A stretch of 58,605 nt of DNA from Clostridia bacterium (GTDB lineage: Bacteria > Bacillota > Clostridia > Oscillospirales > Acutalibacteraceae), in assembly GCA_017465505.1 (NCBI GenBank), contig JAFTWB010000025.1, positions 1 through 58,605 on the forward strand. The letters run 5' to 3'. Below the pieces are notes generated by a model that was not told the DNA's origin, searched no databases, and was given only the letters and a program-made list of their open reading frames with translations. Each line of letters begins with the position of its first letter. The first letter of the stretch is position 1. The position numbers were made by a program, and so were the translations under genes. This document shows positions 1,281-20,755 of this stretch, piece after piece.

Positions 1281-4208
1281 TTAATACGAAAGTATTCCTG
1301 CAAGGTATTTCTGAATAGATGTGGCGTCTTTTACGTTAACCTTGCCGTCGCTGTTAAAATCACAGATTCTGAGCACACTGTCCTCAAGAATTCTGACTTT
1401 AGCAAGGTGTTTCTGAATAGCAGTTGCGTCCCTGATGTTAAGCTTTCCGTCCATATTTGCGTCGCCAAGCAATGTGTTATCATCCCCACCCTCAGTTGAG
1501 TCCTGAGGGGTGTCTTCAGTGGCGTTGGTTGGGTCTTGAGCGGAAGGAGTGGATTCTTCCTCGGGAGCAGTTGTGTCCTCGATATACAACTCAATTTCAT
1601 TGAGCTTAAAGGGGTTGACAGAATAAAGAGCGGCTGTTTCGTAGCTGTTTACAAACCACTTAACCGTGTTGTCAGCAGCGTAAACCGGAGCACAATCGGA
1701 TAATCTGTATGGCATTTCTGCAATATCGGAAGTCATATTGCCCTTTGAATCAATAGTCACCATTTTGGTTTTGTATGTATAATCGCTTTCGTTGCACTCC
1801 TCCCAAATCAGGAAAAACTGATCATTGCCAAGCTTAACAAGATGAGGAGTAAGAGCCGTGATGTCGCTATCACTGCCGTAATCTGTAATGGTAACTGTTT
1901 CACTGCTGTATAAATCTTTGCTTGTAATATTGACAAAGATGTTACGTGCACTGCTCCAGATATTCTCGTTATCAGAGCACATATTACCTGCAATAATAAC
2001 ACTGTTTGTTGAACACTCAACTCCACCTATGGAAGCACCGGTTGCATTGCTTCCGTAGCCGCCTTCAAATCTTACGGGAACAGCATAATCAACCTTGGTA
2101 ATATCACCACCGATTGGGGTTTTTATGATACTTATACCTCTGGGACTGGCGTCTCCGTGGTCTATTCTGTAGATATACTCATCGTCAGAAGCAACAAACT
2201 GATTGAAGGAGTGGCTCACATATCCTGCCTGAGAAATGTTAAGTACATCGGAGAATATATCAGTAAGCTCTGTGGTTTCTGTATCCACAACAAAGGTCAT
2301 ATTTGCCTGATGGTTCACCCCTTCTTCGTCTGCATACATTTCGTGACAAGTGTGAACATAGAGCAAACCCTCTGCCTCAATCAGCCTAAGCGACCCTGCA
2401 TCAAAAGGAATTGATGTGTTCTCGCCGTAAAGAGAAAGTGAATCCAGAAGCTCCCAGATTTTTGAATATTTCTGCACTCTTATAATCTCTTGGTCATCGC
2501 TCTGAGCCTTATTCTCTTGTCCGAACACAAGGAAATTATACTTTTCACCGCTATAATATCCGCCGAATAAATTCATAGGAGAGTCAAGTACAAGAGCCTC
2601 AACACAAGAGCTGAAATCCGCCGAATATGTATCTACATATACACAGTCTGAATCAGCACTTACCAGTGTAAATGTACCGTCAGCATTTTCTGTTATGTAG
2701 GATTTGACAGTTTTTGACCATACATCATAATTGTTTGTGCTTTCGTTGAAGATTCTTTTCTTTACGCTTTCACTTATACTAAGTGCCGGCTCGTCGTAGG
2801 ATGAACATTCGGTTACAGTGACTTTAACCTTTGCTTCCGGCAAGGCTTCTGAAGAAACGGTGATGGTTGTGCTGCCTTTGTGCCATCCGAAAACAGTTCC
2901 GTCTTCATTAACGGTTGCAATGTAAGGATTTTCGCTTTTCCACACAATATCAGGAGTGTAAATTCCGTCAATTTCAGCGTGAAGCTTGAACTCTTCACCA
3001 ACTTCAAGAACCACTTCCTCCGGCGTAGCTGAAATCATTTCGGGTCTTTCCAATTCTAAAATGCAGTAGTAAAAATCATCTCCGTTTTTTTCAAAGAGAA
3101 GAAGCTGTCCGTCATACTCATACATTGCATAAACATCGTACTGTGTGGTAAATTTACCTACGGTTTTGCCTGTATCGGGATTACATTCCATAATAGTTTT
3201 ATCATCGATACAAAAAATCAGTGCGTCATTTTCCTCCATATATACACTGCGTGTACCAACAGCACCATAACTATCATAGTCACCCGAATCATAAGTACGG
3301 GGTATGGAAGCTGTAACATCCATCCTGCCTGAACCGGGCACAAAGGTTTCCATTGGGATTACATAAAACTTTTCATAAAAAGAAGCGTCTATGGCCAGAT
3401 AATCGTCGTGTATAAGCTGGGCTTGCTTGGGGCGGTCGTTGTAACCTATCTGAGAAACCGTCATAACCACATTATTATCGTAATAAATGTTATTGTCTTT
3501 GTCTACTGAGCCCACTCTCAGAGCGTTCATATAATGGTCATAACCCCAAGAGCGGTAATTATAGTATCCGTTTGTGAAGAAATATCCTCTTTCTTCATCA
3601 AATCCCACAAAGTCATACACTTCGTCATCTATAGTGATTTCAGAAAGCTTGTTTCCCGAAGAGTCTAAAATACGCAGAAACGGGCTTGCTTCATCATCTG
3701 TTGAGATAACCTCGCCTGATACATAAATCCTTCCGCTTTTATCTGCGCCTATGGCGGTTAATCTTTCGCCATAATAAACCGCAACAGACTCAAGAGTCTG
3801 TGAATTTAAATCATAGCACAAAATCTCGCTGTGCCAAGGGTCGGCATCTCCCCAAAGGTTATAAAAATCTATCAGGTATATTTTATCATTTGTAACATAC
3901 CTTGAGGTTATATTGAAGTACATATCCAGATTGTAGCTTTCTATCATCTGGCACTCATTGGTTGTTAAATCATATTTATACAAATCATCTTCGCCTATTG
4001 CATAAAAGCAGCTGTCGTTGGTTGAAGGCAATATATCTGTAAAATCATAACTGTGAGGACTATAGAAATCGTTTTTCAAAAGTCCGTCAGGAAGCTTTAC
4101 CAAATCCTTGTCCACCGGCTCATCTGCCGCCATTGCAGCAACAGGCAAACCACATAAGGATATTGCCAGAATCATAAAGACTGCAAGCACTTTAATAAAA
4201 GATTTCAT
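1281..4208 (-). CDS. Secreted dockerin protein with a Big2 Ig-like domain
   Basis: A 975-residue exported protein. A signal peptide (positively charged start, hydrophobic core, AMAADE cleavage region) occupies residues 1-28. The long N-terminal half has repeated aromatic/YxYD-type strands that suggest a beta-propeller-like sensor or adhesion fold. A bacterial Ig-like Big2 domain lies at about 395-470. A second beta-rich region follows, then an acidic/Pro/Thr linker and a C-terminal type I dockerin (about 912-973) with two calcium-loop repeats, each followed by DAT[AS]IQK. The dockerin should bind a cohesin on a scaffold protein outside the cell. The catalytic or binding role is not recognisable. 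RBS GGGAG precedes the ATG. Monocistronic, with its own promoter and terminator. Confidence 0.85.
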   Translation of the reverse strand: MKSFIKVLAVFMILAISLCGLPVAAMAADEPVDKDLVKLPDGLLKNDFYSPHSYDFTDILPSTNDSCFYAIGEDDLYKYDLTTNECQMIESYNLDMYFNITSRYVTNDKIYLIDFYNLWGDADPWHSEILCYDLNSQTLESVAVYYGERLTAIGADKSGRIYVSGEVISTDDEASPFLRILDSSGNKLSEITIDDEVYDFVGFDEERGYFFTNGYYNYRSWGYDHYMNALRVGSVDKDNNIYYDNNVVMTVSQIGYNDRPKQAQLIHDDYLAIDASFYEKFYVIPMETFVPGSGRMDVTASIPRTYDSGDYDSYGAVGTRSVYMEENDALIFCIDDKTIMECNPDTGKTVGKFTTQYDVYAMYEYDGQLLLFEKNGDDFYYCILELERPEMISATPEEVVLEVGEEFKLHAEIDGIYTPDIVWKSENPYIATVNEDGTVFGWHKGSTTITVSSEALPEAKVKVTVTECSSYDEPALSISESVKKRIFNESTNNYDVWSKTVKSYITENADGTFTLVSADSDCVYVDTYSADFSSCVEALVLDSPMNLFGGYYSGEKYNFLVFGQENKAQSDDQEIIRVQKYSKIWELLDSLSLYGENTSIPFDAGSLRLIEAEGLLYVHTCHEMYADEEGVNHQANMTFVVDTETTELTDIFSDVLNISQAGYVSHSFNQFVASDDEYIYRIDHGDASPRGISIIKTPIGGDITKVDYAVPVRFEGGYGSNATGASIGGVECSTNSVIIAGNMCSDNENIWSSARNIFVNITSKDLYSSETVTITDYGSDSDITALTPHLVKLGNDQFFLIWEECNESDYTYKTKMVTIDSKGNMTSDIAEMPYRLSDCAPVYAADNTVKWFVNSYETAALYSVNPFKLNEIELYIEDTTAPEEESTPSAQDPTNATEDTPQDSTEGGDDNTLLGDANMDGKLNIRDATAIQKHLAKVRILEDSVLRICDFNSDGKVNVKDATSIQKYLAGILSY

Positions 4209-4238
4209 ATTATTATCTCCCTTCTTCTTAATAGCTTT

Positions 4239-4267
4239 ATTTTGTCACCTTATTTTATCTATGTCAA
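4239..4267 (-). promoter_or_regulatory. Sigma-A type promoter of the Big2-dockerin gene
   Basis: Leftward TTGACA (4262-4267), a 17-nt spacer, and CAAAAT (4239-4244), a weak -10. It lies about 30 nt upstream of the start at 4208. Confidence 0.5.
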
Positions 4268-4294
4268 TAAAAATTTGCTCTGCTTACAAAACTA

Positions 4295-5554
4295 TCAGAT
4301 TAAAAAACCTGCAATAAACTTCTGAATGGCAGTAGCGTCCTTTACATTAACCCTTCCGTCTGCATTATAGTCAGCAACAGAGAGCTCACTTTCATCAAGC
4401 TCGGTTACCCGTGCCAGATGTTTCTGGATTGCAGTTGCGTCCCTGACATTAAGCTTTCCGTCACCATTGACATCTCCCAAGCTATCATCAGAAGCCCTTA
4501 CAGCTTTAAACTCAATACCAAGCATTTCGGCGTAGGATTCGGCATAAGAGCCCTCAAAGCCGCTTATCACCAGATTAGCCTGATTTTTCTTAAAGGCTTT
4601 TTCGCTGATTTCGGTAACGGATTCAGGGATATAAACTTCAGTAAGCTCAGAACAAAAATCAAAATTCGCAGGGCCGATATACTCAACACCATCAGCAACA
4701 GTAACCTTTGTCACCTTGGAATTATCAAAGGCAAACATAGCAATTGCCTTTGTGCCATCCTTAACTTCAAATTCTCCGTCTGTATCCTGTTTTACCGAAA
4801 TAAGCACTCCGTCTTTATACAGTGCACCATTTTCCCAGTTTGACTCTTCCTTAAAGAAAGCCGTGGGCTCAAGGATTCTTACAAGAAAAACCTTTGCGTG
4901 TTGAGGCTCTAAAGAAATATCCGTAAGACTTGTGCAATCTCTGAAATTCGGGAAAGACATTGATTTAAGGTTTGCAGGAAAATCAAAGCTCTTTAAAGAC
5001 GTGCAATTATTGAAACAACCGCCCTCTATGGTTTCTACGCTATCGGGAATTGTTATATTTTCCAGTGAAGTACAATCGCGAAAACACGACTTTTTTATTT
5101 TGGTAACACCTTCCGGTAAAATTACAGACTTAAGATTTCCACTTCCTACAAATGCATTTTCAGCAATAGTCACAACCCCGTCAGGCACTGTGTATTCTGC
5201 TCTGGGATTATTTTTAGGATAAGCAACAAGAGTTGTCATATCTTTTGTAAACAGCACACCGTCAACGGAGGTAAAATACTCACTGTTTTCATCAATGAAA
5301 ATATTCTCTGTATTGCTCTTATTCAAAAACACATTGGGAGCAACTTCTGCAACAGGATTGCCTTCAACAACACTTGGAATTATAACATCCGCCTTATCCT
5401 CGGTGTAATCCATAAAGGTAGCTTTACCATCACTTGAGAAGACCTCGTAGCTTCCTAAGTTTGTGGTGGTTTCGGCAGATACAACCATCATTGCGCTACA
5501 TCCCACGGTAGCAAGCATAGTTAATGTTAATAAAATACTTGTGATTTTTTTCAT
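4295..5554 (-). CDS. Secreted BspA-type leucine-rich repeat protein with dockerin
   Basis: 419 residues from the ATG at 5554, chosen because AGGAGGAAT stands 4-5 nt upstream and a signal peptide starts directly there (MKKITSILL, hydrophobic core, Ala-Glu cleavage region near residue 28). An upstream ATG at 5710 would add 52 residues reading through a hairpin and is rejected. The middle (about 75-340) holds LRR_5/BspA-like repeats of the form 'IPDSVETIEGGCFNNC'. The C-terminus (about 358-419) is a type I dockerin with two DxNxDGxxNVxDATAIQK units. LRR_5 domains usually mediate adhesion or protein binding; no enzyme domain is visible. It lies directly upstream of the Big2-dockerin gene on the same strand but the 86-nt gap holds a promoter, so the two may be separate units. 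Confidence 0.85.
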   Translation of the reverse strand: MKKITSILLTLTMLATVGCSAMMVVSAETTTNLGSYEVFSSDGKATFMDYTEDKADVIIPSVVEGNPVAEVAPNVFLNKSNTENIFIDENSEYFTSVDGVLFTKDMTTLVAYPKNNPRAEYTVPDGVVTIAENAFVGSGNLKSVILPEGVTKIKKSCFRDCTSLENITIPDSVETIEGGCFNNCTSLKSFDFPANLKSMSFPNFRDCTSLTDISLEPQHAKVFLVRILEPTAFFKEESNWENGALYKDGVLISVKQDTDGEFEVKDGTKAIAMFAFDNSKVTKVTVADGVEYIGPANFDFCSELTEVYIPESVTEISEKAFKKNQANLVISGFEGSYAESYAEMLGIEFKAVRASDDSLGDVNGDGKLNVRDATAIQKHLARVTELDESELSVADYNADGRVNVKDATAIQKFIAGFLI

Positions 5555-5659
5555 AATGATTCCTCCTAAAATGAATATGAATAAATTTATGTAAAGCACA
5601 AAAGGAAACTTCACTCTCCCCTCTGTGCACTTATATAATAAAACAAGTTCAAAAAGATT

Positions 5660-5724
5660 TCCCGTAAAAAAAGTTGCGAACCCTAAAAAACTTTCCCTGA
5701 CGTTTCGCAACTTTTTTTACGGGA
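5660..5724. repeat. Perfect 21-bp inverted repeat in a divergent intergenic region
   Basis: The 21-nt arms 5660-5680 and 5704-5724 (core CCCGTAAAAAAAGTTGCGAA) are exact reverse complements around a 23-nt loop. It lies 106 nt upstream of the leftward dockerin-LRR gene and well upstream of the rightward operon, so it terminates no visible gene in a normal way. It could be a leader hairpin, a small mobile repeat or a protein-binding site. Confidence 0.6.
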
Positions 5725-5814: not shown

Positions 5815-5844
5815 GTCAGGGCTGTAAGCTTTTATAGCCCTGAC
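5815..5844. repeat. 9-bp hairpin GTCAGGGCT/AGCCCTGAC
   Basis: A perfect 9-bp stem with a 12-nt loop and no adjacent T-run. With the 21-bp inverted repeat and the promoter at 5910 it is the only structure I see in the 428-nt divergent intergenic stretch 5555-5982. Confidence 0.4.
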
Positions 5845-5909: not shown

Positions 5910-5938
5910 TTGCCAAAACAATACCAAAGTGCTAATAT
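5910..5938 (+). promoter_or_regulatory. Promoter of the Sel1-kinase-vWA-PP2C-WYL operon
   Basis: TTGCCA (5910-5915), a 17-nt spacer, and TAATAT (5933-5938). The predicted transcript start near 5945 leaves a short 5' leader to the ATG at 5983 and rules out the upstream ATG at 5929 as a start. Confidence 0.5.
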
Positions 5939-5982
5939 TAAGATGGAATTTTGCAGATATTTCAGAAAAGGAAGTGGCTGTA

Positions 5983-8900
5983 ATGTCAACAATCAGTGAC
6001 AAATTCAAATATAAAAAGGCTCAGAAGCTGGAGCAACAGGGCAACATCCAGGAAGCCATAGACATATATAAAGAATTGGCAAATGCAGGTTATCCCGAAG
6101 CCCAATATAAATACGGTACTTTATACGAAGAGGGCAAATATCTTCCCAAAAGTGAAGCAGAAGCCGTCCGTTGGTATGCTAAATCCGCAACAGGTGATTG
6201 TGCAGACGGATATAACGAGCTTGGAAGATGTTACTACTACGGCACAGGAATGAAAGCAATAGATTATAAAAAGGCCTTTGAATGTTTTAAATATGCCGCA
6301 TACAAAGACCACCCGAAGGCCCAATGCAATCTGGCAGTTTGTTTTGAAAACGGCAGAGGAACATCACACTCCAAGAAGTTCCCGGTAGAAGCCTTTCATT
6401 GGTATCACGAATCTGCTCTCAACGGATACTCCAAGGCACAGTACCACTTAGCGGAATGTTACAGAAACAAATACGGAACAAACCTTAACATCGACAAAGC
6501 CATCCACTGGTACACCCGTTCTGCCGAAAACGGCTATGTAAAAGCTCACAACGCTTTGGGCGATATATATTACTATGGTTATGGTGGTACAAGCAAAGAT
6601 CCGGACACCGCCTTGAGTCATTATAAAATTGCGGCAGAAGGCGGCATTTCCGATTCTCAGTACAAGCTGGGAAATTGCTACAAAGAAGGCAAAGGCACCG
6701 AAATAAACAATAAAGCGGCTTTTGATTGGTATGAGAAAGCAGCCGTTCAGGGTAAAATATTGGCACAAAATGCTTTGGCAAAATGTTTTGAAGAGGGACA
6801 CGGAACAAACAAAAACATAGAAAAAGCTCTTGAGTGGTACGAAAAAGCAGGAGAGCAGGAAAGTGTAGACGCACTTCTTTCCATCGCTTCTATTTACATT
6901 CAGGGCAAGGAAGTTGAAAAAGACGCCGCTAAAGCAACAGAGTACTGCGAAAAAGCAAAAAACTGCGTACACGATTCTTTTGAGCTGAAAAGAATCAACA
7001 ACACACTCAAGATTATTGAAGACAGCATAAAAGCAGATATCGCAAAGGTTCAGGAATACGCCGAGCTTAATGTCGCCTCGGCACAGTTTGAACTGGGCAA
7101 ATATTACCATTACGGTACAGGTGTTACCAAGGATATTCAGACAGCCGCACAGTGGTACGAAAAAGCCGCCTTGCAGGATTATGAGCCTGCCTGTATGGCT
7201 CTTGCAAATCTTTGCTATGAGCAGGGAGACTCTGTAAAAGCCGCCGAATGGTGTGTAAAAATACACAGAATAAACGTGGAAGCAAAAGCTCTTATTGAAA
7301 AAATCAAAAATGATTATGAGATTAAATATATAAACGCCCGAGCTCTAAAGGACAAAGCTATACTTGAAAAAGCAACCTTTGATAAAAACTACATTCTGGC
7401 ATTGTGCGGCGACGCAGACGCTCAAAACAGCGTAGGATGTTCCTATTATAACAGCACAGGCGTAACCAAAGATTTTGAGAAAGCATTCACTTGGTTCAAG
7501 AAATCCGCATTACAAGGCGATAAGTTTGCACAAAGCAACTTAGGCCTTTGCTATGAATACGGAAATGGAACAGACAATAATCTTAAAGAAGCATTCAATT
7601 GGTACGAAAAAGCCGCTTTGCAAGGTTATGCTAAAGCACAATGCTACCTTGGACTTTGCTATGAATCTGGCACTGGAACAGATAAAAACCTTAAAGAAGC
7701 TTTTAATTGGTATGAAAAGTCGGCTTTACAAGGCTATGCACAAGCACAAAACAACTTAGGCGTTTGCTATGAACACGGCTACGGAACAGAAAATAACCTC
7801 AAAGAAGCATTCAACTGGTACGAAAAAGCCGCTTTGCAAGGTCACGCAAGAGCTCAATTCAACCTTGGACTTTGCTATGAATTTGGCACCGGAACAGACA
7901 AAAATCTCGAGGAAGCATTCAACTGGTACGAAAAAGCCGCTTTGCAAGGCTATGCACAAGCACAATACAGCTTAGCCCTTTGCTACGAATTCAGCAAAGG
8001 AACAGAAAAAAATCTCAAGGAAGCATTCAACTTGTACGAAAAAGCCGCTTTACAAGGCTATGCACAAGCACAAAACAACTTAGGCTTTTGCTATAAATAT
8101 GGCACTGGCACAGATAAAAACCTTAAAGAAGCTTTTAATTGGTATGAAAAGTCGGCTATGCAAGGCTATTCAAGAGCACAATGCAACTTAGCCAACTGCT
8201 ATTATTGTGGCGATGGAACTTTAAAGGATTACAGCAAGGCAGTTGAATTTTACAAAAAGGCTGCTTTGCAAGGCCATGCACAAGCACAATGCTACTTAGG
8301 AGTTTGCTATGATTATGGCAAAGGAACAGAAAAAAATCTCGAGGAAGCATTCAATTGGTACGAAAAAGCCGCTTTACAAGGCTATGCACAAGCACAATGC
8401 AACTTAGGCTTTTGCTATGAATATGGCACTGGCACAGATAAAAACCTTAAAGAAGCTTTTAATTGGTACAAAAAGTCAGCTTTACAAGGCTATGCAAGAG
8501 CACAAAACAACTTAGGCATTTGCTATGAATTGGGCAACGGAACAGAAAAAAACCTCAAGGAAGCATTCAACTGGTACGAAAAAGTCGCTTTACAAGGTCA
8601 CGTTGAAGCTCAATTCAAACTTGGGAATTTCTATGAATTCGGCAACGGAACAGAAAAAAACATCGATAAAGCTATTGATTGGTACGAAAAGGCAGCTTCG
8701 CAGGGTCACAAAAGAGCATATTTCAGACTGGCTAATATATACTATAAAGGCTCAGACGGTGTTGAGAAAGATTTGAAAAAAGCGTTAGACTTTTGCAGTA
8801 AATCCGATTTAACACTATCATTTAACAAAGAGCTCTACGACGAGATTCAGAAAGAAATTCTTGAAGAAAAAGAGATACAGGAAAACAAGCGTTTAGCCAG

Positions 8901-9189
8901 GCTTGAGCAGATTCTGGCTTATCGCTTTGACAAAGGAGAGCCTATATTTTCGCTGCCTACGGAGCTTGAAAACAACACCGTGTTCAGCCATATGAAATCC
9001 GGTGAAATTTATCACCTTGCTGTAAAAAAAGAGCAGGAAGGCAAAACGGATCACGCTATATTTTTGTACGGAGTTGCCGCAAGCAAAGGGAATCGCAAGG
9101 CGCTTTATACACTTTCAAATATGAGCCAGCACGATACCGAATACTTTATGTTTATAGAGGATCATTCTAATAAGGAGGGTGGAGAGTAA
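5983..9189 (+). CDS. Sel1-repeat (tetratricopeptide-like) scaffold protein
   Basis: 1068 residues from the ATG at 5983 (AAAAGGAAG about 9 nt upstream). I count about 23 Sel1-like repeats of about 36 residues, each a helix pair of the form 'AQxxLGxCYExGxGTxKNLxEAFxWYEKAALQG'. The first ten or so (to about residue 430) are diverged. A second block of 13 (about 477-945) is nearly uniform in protein and DNA, pointing to recent tandem duplication. The C-terminal 120 residues are a charged, repeat-free tail. No signal peptide, so cytosolic. Sel1 proteins act as protein-binding scaffolds. Its stop and the kinase start overlap as TAATG, so it is translationally coupled to the kinase and is the likely scaffold or sensor for it. 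Confidence 0.9.
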   Translation: MSTISDKFKYKKAQKLEQQGNIQEAIDIYKELANAGYPEAQYKYGTLYEEGKYLPKSEAEAVRWYAKSATGDCADGYNELGRCYYYGTGMKAIDYKKAFECFKYAAYKDHPKAQCNLAVCFENGRGTSHSKKFPVEAFHWYHESALNGYSKAQYHLAECYRNKYGTNLNIDKAIHWYTRSAENGYVKAHNALGDIYYYGYGGTSKDPDTALSHYKIAAEGGISDSQYKLGNCYKEGKGTEINNKAAFDWYEKAAVQGKILAQNALAKCFEEGHGTNKNIEKALEWYEKAGEQESVDALLSIASIYIQGKEVEKDAAKATEYCEKAKNCVHDSFELKRINNTLKIIEDSIKADIAKVQEYAELNVASAQFELGKYYHYGTGVTKDIQTAAQWYEKAALQDYEPACMALANLCYEQGDSVKAAEWCVKIHRINVEAKALIEKIKNDYEIKYINARALKDKAILEKATFDKNYILALCGDADAQNSVGCSYYNSTGVTKDFEKAFTWFKKSALQGDKFAQSNLGLCYEYGNGTDNNLKEAFNWYEKAALQGYAKAQCYLGLCYESGTGTDKNLKEAFNWYEKSALQGYAQAQNNLGVCYEHGYGTENNLKEAFNWYEKAALQGHARAQFNLGLCYEFGTGTDKNLEEAFNWYEKAALQGYAQAQYSLALCYEFSKGTEKNLKEAFNLYEKAALQGYAQAQNNLGFCYKYGTGTDKNLKEAFNWYEKSAMQGYSRAQCNLANCYYCGDGTLKDYSKAVEFYKKAALQGHAQAQCYLGVCYDYGKGTEKNLEEAFNWYEKAALQGYAQAQCNLGFCYEYGTGTDKNLKEAFNWYKKSALQGYARAQNNLGICYELGNGTEKNLKEAFNWYEKVALQGHVEAQFKLGNFYEFGNGTEKNIDKAIDWYEKAASQGHKRAYFRLANIYYKGSDGVEKDLKKALDFCSKSDLTLSFNKELYDEIQKEILEEKEIQENKRLARLEQILAYRFDKGEPIFSLPTELENNTVFSHMKSGEIYHLAVKKEQEGKTDHAIFLYGVAASKGNRKALYTLSNMSQHDTEYFMFIEDHSNKEGGE

Positions 9190-11903
9190 TGAGTGCAAGG
9201 TTTTTGGATGAATTAAATTTTTTCGAAGACAATGTAAACCTTGTCAGTTTCGTTGTATTGGATAAGATAATCAAAACTTGGTTAGAAAACATTTTTGATC
9301 CTTTTTTCAGCAATAACGTAAATAACTGTTGGAACTATATTTACAAAAAGGATATAGATTGTCACTCTCAGCATAACAACTATAATATCGTTGAAAAAAG
9401 GTTCATCTGTAACTTTCTGGATGTTACAGACCTTGACTCTGTATGTTGTGAGTACAACTCTTTATCTGATAAAGAGAAAAAAAGCGTTACTCCGATACAA
9501 TTGGGACTTAACCCGAAGCCAATACAACCATCTATGTATATGGATTTACAGTCGATGGTGAAAATTTTAAAGCACAGAGTTTTTATCGACTACGACAAAC
9601 ACGATGGAAGCCGTATACACGATTGGGCAGAAAAAATCATCTCTATACGCAATGATATTTCTATTGCTCACTCAAAAGGACTAACAAAGCTTTACTGGAC
9701 AGACGATAAGTGCAAAACAGATATTATCGACAAGCTTATTGAGCTTACCAAAAAAGCAAAGCTTGCTGCCGATGACGAATGGCCTCACTACGGTGGCGGA
9801 CTTAACAAAGCTTTTTCAAAGCTTGAGGAAGAGCTCGTCCGCTTTAAAGAAGATTACATAAAGGTGGTTTACGGCACTCCCTTGAAAATGGATGAAAGTG
9901 CTTTATATTACACAGATGACTTGTTTGGCTATAAAATTTTATTTGCTTTTGTAGATACCGAAAATGATTACACCCGAAGCTTCATTCAGGACTTAAGCAA
10001 ATGGTATGGAATCTACAGACGAAACAAGTGTTTTTATATGGACAGCAACACCGTAGATAAGCTGGTAACTTTAAGCAAAACAGATTCAAATGCAAAGATT
10101 TTGTTAAAAGACCTTAATCCTCACGCAGAATACAGCTGTTTAAAAACTATCGAAACCGAAACCGCTGATTTAAATAAGTACCGCACAGACACAGTTCTGG
10201 AAAACCTGAAATCCGTTCAAGGCAAATGGTGTGTTATTACGGGAGATGAATATCTTGCCAGCGACATTCAAGATTTAAACAATCCCGATATCGTGGTTAT
10301 GAAAGTTATGAGCAGAACAAGCATTGCCCCCTTCACCCAAACAGTAAAGTCAGTAAACTTTACCCTGAGTTTTGAAGGTGATTTTGAAAAAGAAAATACC
10401 GCCACGCCAAAAGAAGAACCTATTCTCTATGAGTCTGAGCCCGAAGAGCCTGTAATTGAGGAATCTGTCAAGCCAGCCGTTGAGCTCAGCGGTTTTCAGA
10501 AAACAAAACCGCAAAAAGCAAAGGTAAGTAAAAGAAACATTCCTAAAGGAGGCGGTCTGGTATTTCACGAAAGCGACAACAATCCGCAGTTTTTATACAC
10601 AGAGGTTTCAAAAGGCGGAGAAGGCACCATTTACAACACAGGTATGGGCAACACCTATGTTAAGCTCTACCACGACCACACCTGGAACATAAACCGTGCC
10701 AATAAAATAAGTGCTATGAGAAGCTTTTCTCCCAATCTGCCTGAAACTATCTGCTGGCCTTTAGAGGCGATTTTTCATCCTGACAGAGATGAAAAACCCA
10801 TCGGCTACGAAATGCTCAATGTTAAATTCAAAAGCCCCGACGCTATTCCTTTGGATGAGCTCATTTATGAGTTATCCTATGAGAATCCTTGGAATTGGAA
10901 CAGAACAAATCTGGTGAAGCTTTGCCAGAACATAGCCAGAAGCTTTGGGGATTTACACAGAAACAACATCATTATGGGAGATGTTAACCCTAAAAACATA
11001 CTGGTTGATAAAAAGGGCAAGGTATGGTTTATTGATACCGACAGTTACCAGTTTGAGTATAACGGTATTGTATATCGTTGCGAGGTAGGAACACCTGAGT
11101 TTTCTTCTCCCAGACTTCATAAAATGAAATGCAAATTCAGAGAAATTGACAGAACCTTTTCTGACGAATACTTTGCAATTGCCTGCCTTTTCTTTCAGAT
11201 TCTCTTTTTAGGTGAATCCCCATACCCCACCGAAGCCAAAAACGTAAGGTACAGTATTGTGAAAAACAGATTCCGTCTGCACAGTGTAGGAGCCCAGAAG
11301 CACAATTACAAATGGGGAAACCTTACCTTAAAAATCAAAAAGGCCTTTGAAGATGTTTTTGTACGGGAGATTTATATTGACGAAAAGCAGTGGCTTGAGC
11401 TCCTTATTGAAATGGAAGATTCCATATCAAAGCACCAGCTTTCCAATATGCTTGACCCCACATCTGCGCCTCAGCTTGGAGTACCTTTTAAGATCGACAC
11501 TCTACACTGTGAACAGTGTGGTAATTCGTTTGAGTTTTTCAACGATAAAGAGGTAACTACATCAGAAGATGAATTTTGCCCTTCCTGCAAAAAAAGCAGA
11601 AATCTTCTGCGTACCAAAATTATTAAAGTTAAATGTTCAAAATGCGGAGAAATTTTCACCGTAAACAAATGGGATATGGTCAGAAGAAAAGCACATCTTA
11701 CAGGGCAAAATGGCAAAGAAATAGTTTTATCTGAGTTTGATACAGACACAGCTTTATGTCCCGATTGTGACAGTCGTGTCTGCGTTCCTAATGAAGCCAA
11801 GCTTTTAAGCAACAACAGTGAAATCGAAAAAGCAATGGAAAATGCCAAAAGAAACAGTAATATAAAATGGGAGTTGTTAATGTATGGCGAAACTGAATCG
11901 TGA
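9189..11903 (+). CDS. HEPN-like / Ser-Thr kinase / zinc-ribbon protein (YegI/TerY-triad type kinase)
   Basis: 904 residues. (1) Residues about 1-190 are helical and contain R154-N-D-x4-H161, the Rx4-6H signature of HEPN RNases. (2) About 245-405 is an alpha/beta region with FVDTEN and ITGDEYL, which resemble the acidic motifs of PIN-like nucleases (tentative). (3) A Glu/Pro-rich linker. (4) A protein kinase domain, about 465-735, with glycine loop KGGEGT (475-480), candidate ATP lysine K492, catalytic loop G-D598-VNPKN603, metal site D616-TD and GTPEFSSPR, so it looks active. (5) Four CxxC pairs (C774/777, 797/800, 816/819, 857/860), two zinc ribbons. Kinases beside vWA and PP2C genes match the TerY-P triad (E. 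coli YegI/YegL/YegK). The HEPN fusion is unusual. The next gene starts within its last 20 nt. Confidence 0.85.
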   Translation: MSARFLDELNFFEDNVNLVSFVVLDKIIKTWLENIFDPFFSNNVNNCWNYIYKKDIDCHSQHNNYNIVEKRFICNFLDVTDLDSVCCEYNSLSDKEKKSVTPIQLGLNPKPIQPSMYMDLQSMVKILKHRVFIDYDKHDGSRIHDWAEKIISIRNDISIAHSKGLTKLYWTDDKCKTDIIDKLIELTKKAKLAADDEWPHYGGGLNKAFSKLEEELVRFKEDYIKVVYGTPLKMDESALYYTDDLFGYKILFAFVDTENDYTRSFIQDLSKWYGIYRRNKCFYMDSNTVDKLVTLSKTDSNAKILLKDLNPHAEYSCLKTIETETADLNKYRTDTVLENLKSVQGKWCVITGDEYLASDIQDLNNPDIVVMKVMSRTSIAPFTQTVKSVNFTLSFEGDFEKENTATPKEEPILYESEPEEPVIEESVKPAVELSGFQKTKPQKAKVSKRNIPKGGGLVFHESDNNPQFLYTEVSKGGEGTIYNTGMGNTYVKLYHDHTWNINRANKISAMRSFSPNLPETICWPLEAIFHPDRDEKPIGYEMLNVKFKSPDAIPLDELIYELSYENPWNWNRTNLVKLCQNIARSFGDLHRNNIIMGDVNPKNILVDKKGKVWFIDTDSYQFEYNGIVYRCEVGTPEFSSPRLHKMKCKFREIDRTFSDEYFAIACLFFQILFLGESPYPTEAKNVRYSIVKNRFRLHSVGAQKHNYKWGNLTLKIKKAFEDVFVREIYIDEKQWLELLIEMEDSISKHQLSNMLDPTSAPQLGVPFKIDTLHCEQCGNSFEFFNDKEVTTSEDEFCPSCKKSRNLLRTKIIKVKCSKCGEIFTVNKWDMVRRKAHLTGQNGKEIVLSEFDTDTALCPDCDSRVCVPNEAKLLSNNSEIEKAMENAKRNSNIKWELLMYGETES

Positions 11904-12585
11904 TATGGCACTACACGCCGATTTAATAAATAACAAAAACAGACGTTTACCGATTTGCATATGTATAGATGTATCTTCAAAAGCTATTCGTCGGGAAAGT
12001 TATCTTAACACAATCGGAAACTGCATAAAAGAGCTGATGGATAACATTCTTTCTCAGCCCTCTATGAAAGCTTCTGTTGATTTGTTTGTTATGGCTTATG
12101 CCGAAAAAGCAGAAGTAAAAAGAGAGTTTTCAAGCTTAACAAATCATGAGGATTTTAAATTGACCTGGCTTGGCAATGAGCCAAATATGTTCTCTTCTCT
12201 GGATTTATGTCTGCAAAAGCTTCAGCAGCGTCTGAACGAATACAAAAACACTTCCTTATCCAGACATCATCCCATTGTGGTTATTCTCAGCAGCGGCTAT
12301 ACATCCGAATCACCTGATGAATATGAGAGAAAGGTTGAGAACTGGAAAAGTCTTGAAAGCTCTCGCATACTCTCGGTGTTGCCTATTTTAATAGGCGACG
12401 GCGACGACAAGCTTCTGAGAAAAATGACAGCTGACCAGAAAATTGCCAATGCAACAAAAGGCAACCTCTCGGATTTAATAAGAGAAATCGGAAACAGCGT
12501 GGAAGAGCTCTCCAACTCCACCTCGGAAGCATACAGAAACTTAAAGGCAAATATGGTAAGCTGGTCTGACATAGGAGGTAAATAA
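11884..12585 (+). CDS. TerY/YegL-like von Willebrand A domain protein
   Basis: 233 residues, a single vWA domain. The RRLPICICIDVSS start and the helix-strand order match TerY/YegL proteins of kinase-phosphatase triads. The metal-ion-dependent adhesion site is degraded: DxSxS reads D29-V-S-S-K33, and the usual TDG near residue 137 reads S136-S137-G, so its aspartate is lost. The domain may therefore bind partners without a metal. It overlaps the kinase gene by 20 nt and its stop overlaps the phosphatase start (TAATG), so the three are co-translated. In such triads the vWA protein is thought to be the target or adaptor whose phosphorylation state is set by the kinase and phosphatase. Confidence 0.85.
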   Translation: MAKLNRDMALHADLINNKNRRLPICICIDVSSKAIRRESYLNTIGNCIKELMDNILSQPSMKASVDLFVMAYAEKAEVKREFSSLTNHEDFKLTWLGNEPNMFSSLDLCLQKLQQRLNEYKNTSLSRHHPIVVILSSGYTSESPDEYERKVENWKSLESSRILSVLPILIGDGDDKLLRKMTADQKIANATKGNLSDLIREIGNSVEELSNSTSEAYRNLKANMVSWSDIGGK

Positions 12586-13295
12586 TGAAAATTATATGCA
12601 CAAGCCTGACAGGCAGTGCTCACCAAGTAAAGAACATAGAATGTCAGGACGTGGTTAATTCCTATTGCGACGACACTTTTTCTATTATCGTTCTTTCTGA
12701 CGGTGCAGGGTCAAAACCTTATGCTCTTGAAAGTGCAACTCTTCTGACTTTTGAAACTATAAGCTATTTTAAGAGTTTTTTTACCAGCTCTCACATTGAC
12801 TTTTTTGACAGTGAGGATTTTATAAATTATATACAGAGATGTTTTCAGGAAAACGGGTACTCACCTGAAACCGCAGGGGCTACTCTTATTTTTGCCGTTG
12901 TAATCAACAACAGATATCTTATAGGCCATATGGGCGACGGTGTTGCATTGCTGGAAAATAACGATGATTTTTCCGTAATATCATATCCTGAAAACGGCGA
13001 GTATGAATGTGAAACCTTTTTCTTCCCAAGTGAATCGGCACACAAACACTTCAGAACAACCCGTGGCGAAATGGGCTCATCGGGAGCAATTATCCTCACC
13101 AGTGACGGAATCTCAGACTGCCTTTATGACTTCAATACAGGAAGAGTAGCAAATGCTGTGAAGCTTATGGTAGAGTGGGCACGGGATTACTCGGAAGAAA
13201 AGTGCAAAGAGGTACTACTCAACAATTTCAGAACTATTTTTTCTGAATATTCCGCCGATGATAAAAGCGTTGCAATCATTTGCACCACAGAGTAA
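12585..13295 (+). CDS. PP2C-like Ser/Thr protein phosphatase (YegK/PphC type)
   Basis: 236 residues, close to the length of compact PP2C phosphatases. The metal-binding signatures are present in order: Q21-D22 near the start, SD39-G40-AGS, the GATLIFA strand, HMGDG in place of GDS, LTSDGISD, and SADDKS near the end. All key aspartates are kept, so it should be an active Mn/Mg-dependent phosphatase opposing the upstream kinase. Cytosolic. It starts inside the vWA stop codon. 23 nt separate it from the WYL gene. Confidence 0.88.
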   Translation: MKIICTSLTGSAHQVKNIECQDVVNSYCDDTFSIIVLSDGAGSKPYALESATLLTFETISYFKSFFTSSHIDFFDSEDFINYIQRCFQENGYSPETAGATLIFAVVINNRYLIGHMGDGVALLENNDDFSVISYPENGEYECETFFFPSESAHKHFRTTRGEMGSSGAIILTSDGISDCLYDFNTGRVANAVKLMVEWARDYSEEKCKEVLLNNFRTIFSEYSADDKSVAIICTTE

Positions 13296-13318
13296 AAAAT
13301 CAAAATCAGGGTGATTTT

Positions 13319-14563
13319 ATGGCTTACAGCGAGCTTATTAAAAACTTCTCTAACATAAGAGAATATATCAGGCAGTTTTATGTATACGGCTTTAAAAGCC
13401 GTAGCGAATACAACGCCAAAAGTGCCCGAAGCTACGACAATGAGCGTAGACGAATAGAAAGCTGGATGGGCGAATATATGACTTTCAGAAATGACAGTGA
13501 CGGCAAAAGGGTCTTTTTGTCTGTTGACAGTCGCTCCATAGAGTCTAACCCTCTGTATAACGCCTTTAAGGCAAAAAGCTTCACTTCAGGAGATATTACA
13601 TTTCACTTTTATATTCTGGATTTGCTCTCAGACGGTGTTGCCCGTCCCATAAGTAAAATTCTCAAAGGCTTTTCCGATGATTATCTGAGCTTCTTTTCGG
13701 GTGTTAAAGAATTTGATGAGTCTACCGTCAGAAAGAAGCTTAAGGAATATGTACGCATAGGCTTGCTGAAAACAGAAAAGAAAGGTAAAGAGGTGCTTTA
13801 CAGCATAAATAACTGTGATGTAAATACAGATTCTTTTAAAGACGCTGTCGCTTTCTTTTCAGAGGTTTCTCCCGTTGGCATAGTGGGTTCATTCATTGCC
13901 GACAAATCTGAAAAAACACCTTCCCCGTTTTGCTTTAAGCACCACTATATTCTCAACGCTATTGACAGCCAGATTATGTATGAGCTGCTTTTGGCAATCA
14001 ACGAGAAATACATTGCCGAAATAACTGTCAAGGCAGTCAACAGCAAAAAAAGCGACACCTTAAAGGTATCGCCCTGTAAAATTTACATAAGCACACAAAA
14101 CGGCAGGCAATATGTCTTTTGCCGAAACGAAGAAAACTCAGAGCCTTTATTCATAAGAACAGACAACATCAAAAATGTAAAGCTCTGTGAAAAATCTGCC
14201 GACATACAAAGTACGGATTTATTATACGAAGAAAATAAAGATAAAATCTGGGGCGTTTCCCTTGGTGACAAAGTTTCAACGGAAAGAGTAGAGCTGAAAA
14301 TTCATATTGAGGAACACGAAAGCTACATTCTCCAACGCCTGTACAGAGAAAAGAGATGTGGCAAAATAGAAAAAATTGATAATAGCACCTATTTATTCAC
14401 TGCACAAGTTTACGACTCCAACGAGCTTCTCCCCTGGATACGCACATTTTTGGGCAGAATCAAAAGCTTTAAGTGCAGCAACAATTCAACCGTCCAAAGA
14501 TTCTATGCTGATTTAAATGCTATGTACGATATATACGGAGGTGAAAACAGTGCTGTTCAGTGA
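13319..14563 (+). CDS. WYL-domain transcriptional regulator
   Basis: 414 residues from the ATG at 13319 (CAGGGTGAT upstream); an in-frame ATG at 13280 inside the phosphatase gene is rejected. Residues about 1-190 hold a winged-helix DNA-binding region (FDESTVRKKLKEYVRIGLL resembles a recognition helix and wing). About 200-340 is a WYL Sm-like ligand-binding domain, and the end (YDSNELLPWIRTFLGRI) is a WCX-type C-terminal extension. WYL proteins sense nucleotides or nucleic acids and commonly control phage-defence genes. It is joined to the next WYL gene by a 14-nt overlap, so the pair may act as a heterodimer. Likely regulator of this operon. Confidence 0.85.
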   Translation: MAYSELIKNFSNIREYIRQFYVYGFKSRSEYNAKSARSYDNERRRIESWMGEYMTFRNDSDGKRVFLSVDSRSIESNPLYNAFKAKSFTSGDITFHFYILDLLSDGVARPISKILKGFSDDYLSFFSGVKEFDESTVRKKLKEYVRIGLLKTEKKGKEVLYSINNCDVNTDSFKDAVAFFSEVSPVGIVGSFIADKSEKTPSPFCFKHHYILNAIDSQIMYELLLAINEKYIAEITVKAVNSKKSDTLKVSPCKIYISTQNGRQYVFCRNEENSEPLFIRTDNIKNVKLCEKSADIQSTDLLYEENKDKIWGVSLGDKVSTERVELKIHIEEHESYILQRLYREKRCGKIEKIDNSTYLFTAQVYDSNELLPWIRTFLGRIKSFKCSNNSTVQRFYADLNAMYDIYGGENSAVQ

Positions 14564-15863
14564 AATTTACGGCAGTTACTATAACACTGTGGGTAAAATA
14601 ATATCCGAAGCCGTAAAGGGTAGTTTAACCGATAAAAAAATGTTTGAAATCATAACCCGAAATGCTTTTTCTGAAAGCTCTGTGTCTATTCCTCAACACC
14701 TGAAGGATACCTCTTGGCCCTTGCTTACAGAAAACAACAAAACAGTTTTAAAGTCAAGCCCTGCTGCACCTCTTTCCCATTTGCAAAAAAGCTGGCTTAA
14801 AAGTATTTTGCTTGACCCGAGAATAAAGCTTTTCTCTCCCGAAATAAAAGGACTGGAAAACGTAAAGCCTCTGTATAATCCTGAAGATATTGTTTACTTC
14901 GATAAATATACAGACGGAGATTCTTTTAGCGACCCTGAATATATAAACAATTTTCAAACCGCTCTCAGGGCTTTCAGAAGCGATAAAGCACTGAAAATAG
15001 AATATATTGACCGCCGGGAAAAAACCATTTCTTTAAAATGCTTCGTGAAAAATCTGGAATACTCCCTTAAAGACGATAAATTCCGTGTTAATGCCTTTTA
15101 TCAAGGCGAAAGTTTTACACTGAATATGAACAGAATCAAATCTTGCGAAGAACTTGAAGATGAATTGTCTGAAAACCAAAGAATCAGTCAAAGGGCAAAA
15201 AAAGAGGTAGTTCTTCAGCTTACAGACGAAAGGAACTCCCTTGAACGTGCAATGATACACTTCTCGCACCTTGAAAAAGAAGCCAGACAAACAGAGCAAA
15301 ATCGCTACACCATTAAGCTTAAATACTACCAAGAGGACGAGACTGAAATGCTTATAAGGGTTCTTTCTTTTGGCCCTATGATAAAAGTCATAAGCCCCGA
15401 GGATTTTGCAGAAAAAATAAAATCCCGTTTGTTTGCCCAGAAAGCTCTGACAACCCCTGAAGAGTCCAGCAAAAAAGGGAAATACATCTATGTAGGATGT
15501 TTTGTCAATAAGCACGAACTGAATGTATTGACAAAAAACATCCGTAAAAACCCTTTACCCCAAGCTATCGAAAATCCTCACATAACATTCCAATATAAGC
15601 CCTCAACAGTTGACGAAGGGCTTTTTGGTGCAAAAATTCAGGTTAAGGTTACGGGATACTGCAACAACGGCACTAACGAAGGGCTGCTGGTTGAACTGTT
15701 TTCTCACAACAAAGAGATTTCAGATATGATAAATCGGATTAAAACTCCTCACATAACCCTCTCCCTCAGCGACAATGGCAAAGCAGTTGATACCCGTTTG
15801 CTGAAATTCAGTCCTATAACTCCCTTTTTTATTGAAGGGGTATTCGAGGGTGTGCATTACTAG
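14550..15863 (+). CDS. WYL-domain protein with C-terminal 2H-phosphoesterase-like domain
   Basis: 437 residues from a GTG at 14550, chosen because GGAGGTG stands 6 nt upstream; an ATG at 14517 lacks a site. A helical N-terminus (no obvious HTH) is followed by a WYL core at about 135-215 (ALKIEYIDRREK, then LEYSLKDDKFRVNAF) and a WCX region to about 300. The last 130 residues form an extra domain with two matching motifs, P-H344-I-T346 and P-H401-I-T403, 57 residues apart. A pair of HxT motifs is the signature of 2H phosphoesterases, which open 2',3'-cyclic phosphates on RNA ends. That assignment is mine and rests on the motif pair alone. Last gene of the operon; the next gene converges 16 nt away with no clear terminator. 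Confidence 0.75.
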   Translation: MLFSEIYGSYYNTVGKIISEAVKGSLTDKKMFEIITRNAFSESSVSIPQHLKDTSWPLLTENNKTVLKSSPAAPLSHLQKSWLKSILLDPRIKLFSPEIKGLENVKPLYNPEDIVYFDKYTDGDSFSDPEYINNFQTALRAFRSDKALKIEYIDRREKTISLKCFVKNLEYSLKDDKFRVNAFYQGESFTLNMNRIKSCEELEDELSENQRISQRAKKEVVLQLTDERNSLERAMIHFSHLEKEARQTEQNRYTIKLKYYQEDETEMLIRVLSFGPMIKVISPEDFAEKIKSRLFAQKALTTPEESSKKGKYIYVGCFVNKHELNVLTKNIRKNPLPQAIENPHITFQYKPSTVDEGLFGAKIQVKVTGYCNNGTNEGLLVELFSHNKEISDMINRIKTPHITLSLSDNGKAVDTRLLKFSPITPFFIEGVFEGVHY

Positions 15864-18712: not shown

Positions 18713-20755
18713 TTGAAACGATTTTTAATAGTTTTACTTACGCTTATTATGGTACTTTCAGCAGGTGCTCTAGCAGTAAGTGCAGACCCGGTTGTGAATT
18801 ACAAAGAAGTTGACTACATAAAAGCCGATATGCTTTATGTTCACGGCACTTCTCAAATTGCTGAAACAGAGGCTTGGCAGCACTGGCAGCAGCTTGACCT
18901 TTACCGCGACTACGACGAGGACGAGCAGCGTGATATGGGCGTTAAGCGTGAAGATGGTATCTCCAAAGAATACTACTTCTTCCTGCCAAGCGGTGCAGAC
19001 AACAAAAAGGCTGAGATTCTCAACACATTTTCTGAGGATATCAAAATCGGCAATATCACTATTCCCTCCTGGGGCTTTGCAACTATTGATTACAACACCA
19101 CAGACGATTTTAAGGCAGAGGTAAGCGGCAAAGAATACACATTCCGCTTCAGAAAGTCAAATGCAGAAGCCGCAATTTACATCAACAACCCTGACGCCGA
19201 CGGCAACGGCACTGACCTGCTTTCTTATCTCTCTCAGGATAAAGAAAATGACGCCAAGGCAACAGGTGCAATCGTAAACAACGACGGCACAGTGGACAAC
19301 ACCCCAATTAAAAAAATCAAGGGCAGAGGCAACACAACCTGGGTTAAAGAGAAAAAGCCCTTTAACGTTACCTACGAAGAGGCCGTTTCCATTAACGGAA
19401 TGGAAGGCACAAAAAAGCTTTCTCTCCTTGCTAACTATCAGGACGCTTCACTTGCAAGAAACAGAATTTTGCTTGACCTTGCAGACGAGGTGAACATCCC
19501 CTACTCTTCCGACTCCCGCTTTGTTGATTTTTATATGAATGGTGAGTATCTGGGCTCTTACCAGATTGCACAGAAGGTTGACATTGGTAAGAAAAACCTT
19601 GTTAAAGCAATTGAGGATGACACCCACCTTAACGAAGACGGTACTCTCAAAGAAGAGTTTCCTTTCCTTGTGGAGATTGACGCAGGAGCAGGCAATGACG
19701 ATTATCACACTTCCTCTTCCAAGGGCAAGTGCAACCTCACCGTAAAGGGACCTGAGCTGGACAAAGATGACCCCTACTATAATGAAGTTTTAAGTGTTGT
19801 AAGAACCAAGTTTGACCAGATGTATGACGCAGTTCTGAGAAATTCCGATAATCTCAGCGAGCTTGTGGACATTGACTCTCTGGCAAAGCTTGTGCTTATT
19901 AACGAGCTGAGCAAAAACTGGGACGTTGGTATCTCCAGCTTTTACCTCACCTATATGGCTGATGAGAATGGCAATTACAAATTCTTCGGCTCTCCCTGCT
20001 GGGACTACGACAACTCCATCGGTAACGCTAAGGGTATTGAGGGCGACCTCAACAGAATGGGCGTAAAGGATTACGAAGAGCCCACAGGCTGGTGGAGCGA
20101 GTATAAGCTCAACGGCTGGGGAAGCGGCAAATCGGGCAAATACACTCTCCCGGGTTATGCAATGAAGAACACAACCATCCGCCAGAGAATGGCCGAAATC
20201 TGGTTTGAGGAATTTGTGCCTGCTATTGAAACCTTTAATGGTGAAAAGGTAGCTGAAGGCGAATTTTACTCCAAGGATGTTTACTACGACTACCTCAAGG
20301 CTTCTGCCGAAATGAACTACGAAATGGGCTGGAGAATCAATACAGGCGACTGGATTTGTGACCACTCCACCCTGACAAACGGCACTTACGACAGCAAGAG
20401 CGGCGAGTTCACTTTAAACGCAGAGCCCACAACCTACGATATATCCACCTTTAAGGGTGAGTATGACTATATGGTAGACTGGTTCAACACCCGTGCTGCC
20501 TGGATTAGTGCAGAGTTTCACGATATGGTTTACAAGACTCTTATTTTAGGCGACGCAAACCTTGACGGCAAGGTAAACGTTAAGGACGCAACCCTTGTTC
20601 AGAAGACTCTGGCAAAAATCACCGCTCTTGAGGGTGACGGCTTCACCTGCGGTGACGTTAACGGCGACGAAAAGCTTTCTATTCAGGACGCCACAAATAT
20701 TCAGAAATATTCTGCAAATATTGACATTGACTACAAGGTAGGTCAGCCTGTTTAA
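18713..20755 (+). CDS. Secreted CotH-kinase family protein with dockerin
   Basis: 680 residues beginning at a TTG preceded by AAGGAGGAA. Signal peptide to about residue 25 (LAVSADP). The CotH domain spans about 195-560: R205-G-N-T-T-W, LLANYQDASLARN, NGEYLGSY, a catalytic-type EID and CWDYDNSIG, all matching spore-coat CotH atypical kinases that transfer phosphate to proteins. A type I dockerin closes the protein at about 612-678 with two DAT-containing calcium loops. Extracellular CotH-dockerin fusions occur in cellulosome-bearing Ruminococcus, where the substrate is unknown. Own promoter and terminator, so monocistronic. Confidence 0.88.
   Translation: MKRFLIVLLTLIMVLSAGALAVSADPVVNYKEVDYIKADMLYVHGTSQIAETEAWQHWQQLDLYRDYDEDEQRDMGVKREDGISKEYYFFLPSGADNKKAEILNTFSEDIKIGNITIPSWGFATIDYNTTDDFKAEVSGKEYTFRFRKSNAEAAIYINNPDADGNGTDLLSYLSQDKENDAKATGAIVNNDGTVDNTPIKKIKGRGNTTWVKEKKPFNVTYEEAVSINGMEGTKKLSLLANYQDASLARNRILLDLADEVNIPYSSDSRFVDFYMNGEYLGSYQIAQKVDIGKKNLVKAIEDDTHLNEDGTLKEEFPFLVEIDAGAGNDDYHTSSSKGKCNLTVKGPELDKDDPYYNEVLSVVRTKFDQMYDAVLRNSDNLSELVDIDSLAKLVLINELSKNWDVGISSFYLTYMADENGNYKFFGSPCWDYDNSIGNAKGIEGDLNRMGVKDYEEPTGWWSEYKLNGWGSGKSGKYTLPGYAMKNTTIRQRMAEIWFEEFVPAIETFNGEKVAEGEFYSKDVYYDYLKASAEMNYEMGWRINTGDWICDHSTLTNGTYDSKSGEFTLNAEPTTYDISTFKGEYDYMVDWFNTRAAWISAEFHDMVYKTLILGDANLDGKVNVKDATLVQKTLAKITALEGDGFTCGDVNGDEKLSIQDATNIQKYSANIDIDYKVGQPV

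Follow-up and report, generated by a model that had tools for sequence, protein, structure and literature searches.

A TerY-P-like gene set whose kinase carries an RNase-like domain, with a Sel1-repeat partner and a WYL pair, in a Clostridia genome

Contig JAFTWB010000025.1 of a Clostridia bacterium (family Acutalibacteraceae; assembly GCA_017465505.1) was analyzed over positions 1 to 58,605, and this whole stretch of 58,605 nucleotides is referred to below as the window. We focused on six genes, all on the + strand, that span 5983-15863 and encode a Sel1-repeat protein, a kinase protein, a vWA-like protein, a PP2C phosphatase and two WYL proteins. The original prediction, made from the letters of the window, had described them as a tight array, and the close packing was verified when the junctions were re-measured in the sequence: the Sel1 and kinase genes overlap by 1 nt, the kinase and vWA genes by 20 nt, and the vWA and PP2C genes by 1 nt, a gap of 23 nt separates the PP2C gene from WYL1, and WYL1 and WYL2 overlap by 14 nt. 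The Sel1 gene starts at the ATG at 5983, the listed open reading frame (ORF) from 5929 beginning at an upstream GTG. The G+C content of the operon is 39.7%, versus 43.3% for the remainder of the window. Loci and genomes compared with the window carry the prefixes L and G, respectively. The features are as follows.

5816-5843, no strand: palindrome TCAGGGCT-12-AGCCCTGA, a candidate operator (11/12 arm pairs)
5910-5938, + strand: promoter-like site named in the original prediction, TTGCCA-17-TAATAT, 9/12 consensus positions, chance-like
5983-9189, + strand: Sel1-repeat protein of 1068 aa (Pfam Sel1 E 7e-202, 21 stretches)
9189-11903, + strand: HEPN / PIN-like / Ser-Thr kinase / zinc-ribbon protein of 904 aa (Pkinase E 1.3e-8)
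9189-9878, + strand: HEPN-like N-terminal part of that protein, motif RNDISIAH at residues 154-161
9882-10331, + strand: PIN-like region, probably degenerate, residues 232-381 (aligned by eye with L087 and L007)
10521-11423, + strand: kinase domain with K492, D598, N603 and D616, high model confidence
11496-11783, + strand: zinc-ribbon region (Zn_ribbon_8 E 2e-4 and Zn_ribbon_4 E 0.0024, both below the Pfam cut-off)
11884-12585, + strand: vWA-like protein of 233 aa that has lost the metal ion-dependent adhesion site (MIDAS), kin to the vWA protein of L099 by profile and BLAST
12585-13295, + strand: PP2C phosphatase (PP2C_2 E 3.8e-30)
13319-14563, + strand: WYL1 (PADLOC WYL E 2.2e-10; Pfam WCX below cut-off)
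14550-15452, + strand: WYL part of WYL2 (PADLOC WYL E 9e-8; GTG start)
15453-15863, + strand: putative C-terminal 2H-like domain of WYL2, with two HxT motifs

The gene set is neither an artifact nor commonplace. It is a TerY-P-like variant: the kinase chain includes an RNase-like domain, a Sel1-repeat protein is the hallmark of the branch, and a WYL pair is an accessory. We tentatively read it as a phosphorylation switch built around a kinase-fused RNase, joined by a WYL pair related to the pairs of repair loci, and we give this reading slightly less than an even chance. The composition of the whole set suggests, without proving it, a switch that would tie phosphorylation to RNA damage. The original prediction had placed an HEPN-like RNase in the operon and had named residues H161 and D598, which were confirmed in RNDISIAH and MGDVN, respectively. 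The HEPN signature R-N-x(2-6)-H was conserved in 20/20 alignment rows covering that part. However, HEPN part and kinase form a single chain, which ruled out a separate HEPN gene, and the HEPN fold was unconfirmed. Kinase residues K492, D598, N603 and D616 were conserved in all 22 rows, the zinc-ribbon region showed invariant Cys residues among relatives, D235 of the PIN-like region was present in 18/22 rows, and a plasmid-borne relative of the protein carries the annotation PIN domain protein. The predicted structure reached a mean predicted local distance difference test score (pLDDT) of 64.7 and was good for the kinase domain only.

Matches to the kinase were rare among close relatives. Among 99 further genomes in the genus only one matched, over residues 451-699 alone and at 26% identity, which ruled out the housekeeping set conserved in all relatives that the original prediction had weighed. 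In the family, 4/199 other genomes matched, and the whole triad was present at three of the four loci concerned. When named genomes were scanned with patterns from two kinases, 21 loci were obtained, a sample in which that branch is over-represented. The order kinase, vWA, PP2C was kept at all 21, with a Sel1 gene interposed in L098. The Sel1 gene itself was found at 16/21 kinase loci, compared with none of 13 other TerY-type kinase loci, none of 32 WYL-type loci and none of six further loci (tblastn). Of these controls, the 13 TerY-type loci comprise ten with all three triad genes, L007 and L088, which showed no PP2C, and L092, with the kinase alone, and the 32 WYL-type loci are 31 of the 33 WYL loci described below plus L058. 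Sel1 therefore accompanies the HEPN-kinase branch. Multiple Sel1 genes per triad locus were seen in L097:9034-15486 and L098:11951-19193. Separately, in L088:7605-11517 a TIR protein (TIR_2 E 1.6e-10) immediately precedes the TerY-type kinase and the vWA gene, and it has weak Sel1 repeats in Pfam, below cut-off, that went unseen by the tblastn control.

The WYL1-WYL2 pair was found at 4/21 kinase loci (L097, L098, L099 and L108). With this and the Sel1 count, the original prediction is not refuted by its own test, namely that the first and last genes fail to accompany the triad. Every one of the six gene kinds is present, in an order different from that of the window, at L071, which is the same locus as L099. 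The recurrence of these neighbor kinds across other genomes and families exceeds chance, and no publication on this gene set was found in searches of an open-licence library. In L101:4242-5228 and L107:4395-5381, a 328-aa WYL-like protein with weak matches (E 0.041 and 0.075) lies divergent from the Sel1 gene.

The tracking of this kinase branch by Sel1 also suits a reading in which the HEPN part is only an RNA-binding sensor and the output is phosphorylation of Sel1-held targets. The apparently degenerate PIN-like region agrees with it, as does a passage of PMC3710099 in which a receptor role is presumed for some HEPN domains. A binding-only role would have no need of the signature found in 20/20 rows, however, and we regard it as very improbable.

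For the triad, the original prediction had recognized TerY-P. The adjoining kinase, vWA and PP2C genes bear this out, as do the 21 loci that keep them together, but the vWA-like protein of the window had no Pfam family match and its MIDAS is lost. Its relative in L099 matched Pfam VWA_2 (E 3.1e-8). In an alignment judged by eye, the MIDAS motif DxSxS...T...D was present in 27/29 vWA rows and missing from the window and L096. Because of this loss, metal sensing by the window protein is unlikely and a metal-sensing vWA was rejected as a candidate, and the window is called TerY-P-like rather than a metal-sensing TerY-P.

The two WYL proteins of the original prediction were backed by PADLOC profiles, Pfam giving WCX only, and PDB sequence searches with WYL1 and WYL2 were unproductive. 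Within the order, WYL2 matched in 33/295 genomes, the window's own genome counted. After exclusion of G459, which matched the 2H part only, 33 WYL loci from 32 genomes were retained, on fetched stretches of 5.4 to 58.6 kb, several of which stop at a contig end. G464 contributes two contig-end pieces (L059 and L072), whose WYL2 matches are probably one gene split by assembly. With each family named from one representative, tblastn placed RtcB near 16 of the 33 loci, a DUF2828/DUF7788 protein near 12, an SPFH protein near 13 and any of the three near 24. A TerY-type kinase was present at only two, the window and L071. In this order, the WYL family mainly neighbors RNA-repair-type genes, among which we take the DUF2828 proteins to be Ro60-like. 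The window pair shares 35-57% identity by BLAST with the family at repair-type loci, L071 excepted. The WYL1-WYL2 pairs (L040-L072) probably regulate the RNA-repair-type loci of this order, judging from gene neighborhood, and no publication on such a role was found in searches of an open-licence library.

These neighborhoods raise the alternative of a stress or RNA quality-control regulator, independent of phage and triggered by damaged RNA, for which the 24/33 loci near RtcB, DUF2828 or SPFH genes and the 2H-like domain both speak. Yet the set is rare in the genus, unlike a core quality-control system, and RtcB elsewhere in the window's genome was ruled out as far as searched, with 0 matches in this 84%-complete assembly and a search control positive in 9/14. 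We consider this alternative rather improbable.

Trees pointed to a separate history for the pair. The WYL trees are rooted at midpoints and carry no branch support. For WYL1 the window falls inside the group near repair-type genes, and for WYL2 at the base of that group, with L057 alone further out. In both trees a second group holds L071, L097 and L098, and L108 is on its own. In the kinase tree, whose WYL-pair label omits the window, the window groups with L096 (support 99), a joining of two long branches that calls for caution. The four remaining kinases linked to a WYL pair lie inside a seven-row group (support 87). Because the WYL and kinase trees place the window apart from the other WYL-linked loci, and the genome of L096 gave no WYL1 or WYL2 match, we infer that the WYL pair probably joined the kinase triad at least twice.

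The last gene likely ends in a 2H phosphoesterase domain, which the original prediction had overlooked. The WYL2 of the window extends 136 aa beyond the usual end at about 300 aa, this tail holds PHITFQY and PHITLSL, and among the WYL2 matches in the order the window alone spans both the WYL part and the tail. The two HxT motifs were invariant in 5/5 rows, and the strand/helix order of the tail model agrees with what we take to be the 2H fold. In the class, matches to the tail were found in 3/390 other genomes. Relatives are stand-alone proteins in L058, L128 and L130 and the start of a larger protein in L129, and the homologue in L130 matched a PHROG called RNA ligase (E 0.0042). Another stand-alone 2H-like protein is encoded at L135:4959-5372 on a 467-kb viral contig. 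Further viral scans for 2H-like relatives gave none or the same viral contig, and phage records gave none. In L058:1392-3236 and L128:7914-9649 the stand-alone 2H-like protein lies beside a second protein. The two second proteins share 32% identity over 438 aa, with no Pfam family above cut-off.

Upstream of the operon, the single promoter claimed by the original prediction was not established. The site at 5910-5938 is a consensus match only, one of 36 in 12 kb, compared with 24.5 (standard deviation 4.8) in shuffled sequences. The arm pairing of the palindrome at 5816-5843 (11/12) was matched by 4/500 random sequences of equal dinucleotide make-up. At up to two mismatches its pattern occurs at a single place in the genome, where chance alone also allows about one.

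Several lines of evidence bear on a plain abortive-infection defense, in which phage trips the kinase, the HEPN RNase halts growth and the WYL pair just silences the operon. TerY-P has antiphage reports (passages of PMC7699616 and PMC11090510), HEPN RNases are described as frequent in defense in part of PMC3710099, the distribution in the genus is patchy, and relatives of the kinase occur on 52 plasmid records, every one below 60% identity. Against this, PADLOC gave scattered matches only among 82 of 147 flanking ORFs from 15 of 20 related loci, a comparison run without a control set and with 25 of 38 families listed. The flanks of the window hold dockerin, glycan and transport genes, and the PADLOC matches of the six proteins at E 0.1 included no TerY-P model, the library having been left unchecked for such a model. 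The setting in a defense island expected by the original prediction was thus not shown. Given the scattered matches and the missing control, defense linkage is neither shown nor excluded. We consider the abortive-infection reading unlikely, though far from negligible. A phage-borne system was ruled out as a candidate, kinase relatives being absent from viral contigs and phage records giving one short match over 16% of the query. The next flank gene had distant matches only, in 2/19 other genomes of the genus, which made an empty-site comparison impossible. Dockerin-bearing proteins (Big_2, BspA-like LRR, CotH) lie on either side of the operon, at 1281-5710 and 18713-20755 of the window.

Under the phosphorylation-switch reading, the kinase and the PP2C protein would together determine the phosphorylation state of the 904-aa protein, with PP2C resetting it, and this state would open or close the fused, putative HEPN RNase. 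The Sel1 protein could scaffold the complex or hold its target, and the vWA-like protein, having no metal site, could serve as an adaptor. HEPN RNases leave 2',3'-cyclic phosphate ends, and the 2H-like domain of WYL2 may bind or open such ends. The WYL1-WYL2 pair may sense RNA ends, RNA fragments or another nucleic-acid ligand, and may control expression, perhaps at the palindrome as a putative operator. A passage of PMC4012209 gives nucleotides or fragments of nucleic acid as the predicted ligands of WYL domains. The system might act against phage or RNA-damaging stress.

A number of observations weigh against this reading. On the side of the domains, the HEPN and PIN-like parts were unrecognised by Pfam and PDB sequence profiles, hhalign of the HEPN part with one HEPN_Swt1 protein gave no recognised relation, and the N-terminal part of the kinase-protein model is helical, with low to middling confidence. 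Likewise, the 2H-like tail was unmatched in Pfam and PDB sequence profiles and its model is weak (pLDDT 56). On the side of the associations, 17/21 kinase loci have no WYL pair, the WYL2 relative lies on a different contig from the kinase in G850, G853 and G854, and the genome of L096, the nearest kinase relative (a 3.1-kb contig without flanks), gave no match to WYL1 or WYL2. The absence of RtcB matches and flanks that are not visibly defense-rich point the same way.

A bolder extension is a bacterial logic like that of Ire1 and RNase L. A phospho-switched HEPN RNase would cut RNA, PP2C would reset it, and a WYL-2H regulator would read or trim 2',3'-cyclic phosphate ends, thereby weighing damage against response, with the Sel1 partner marking a TerY-P-like subtype. 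As a whole we hold this to be speculative and of low probability. In a subtype of the known TerY-P triads whose kinase shares its chain with an RNase-like domain, the output would be open to direct testing. The kinship of the WYL pair to RtcB-side pairs, in turn, offers a handle on what paired WYL regulators sense.

Ire1 and RNase L are kinases with a KEN RNase, and RtcB is the ligase partner. The window resembles them in carrying a kinase and a putative HEPN-superfamily RNase in a single chain and in an indirect link to RtcB through the WYL family. It differs in the N-terminal position of its HEPN part and in the lack of any RtcB match in the genome, and a passage of PMC3710099 gives KEN no specific relation to prokaryotic HEPN.

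The TerY-P triad was reportedly described by Anantharaman et al. in 2012. The window shares with it the adjoining kinase, vWA and PP2C genes and the catalytic residues of the kinase. It differs in the HEPN and PIN-like parts that precede the kinase, the Sel1 and WYL-pair partners, a vWA protein without MIDAS and an OB-fold undetected in the window. TerY-P is reported to be an antiphage triad (Gao et al. 2020, as related in passages of PMC7699616 and PMC11090510). The former reports it against T7-like phages, and part of the latter describes a kinase-zinc-ribbon form beside CoCoNuTs. The putative zinc ribbons of the window, both below the Pfam cut-off, would lie after the kinase as in that form. 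In CoCoNuT Types II and III-A, TerY-P and an HEPN RNase share a locus, but the HEPN there lies in another protein, according to passages of PMC11090510. Among the six window proteins, Pfam gave no match to a McrB-type GTPase, CnuH/CnuE or a helicase.

In E. coli, YegI autophosphorylates and PphC (YegK) dephosphorylates it (passage of PMC13232886). Like the YegI/PphC/YegL set, the window has a PP2C partner, and its kinase shares 27.2% identity with a plasmid-borne yegI over residues 469-754. YegI is membrane-bound, however, and the passage makes no mention of HEPN, Sel1 or WYL. The kinase-kinase-phosphatase (KKP) system has two kinases and a phosphatase, whereas the six-gene set has one kinase. 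Finally, the WYL1-WYL2 family is common to the window and the RtcB, DUF2828 and SPFH loci, but where those loci have repair-type genes the window has kinase, vWA, PP2C and Sel1 genes.

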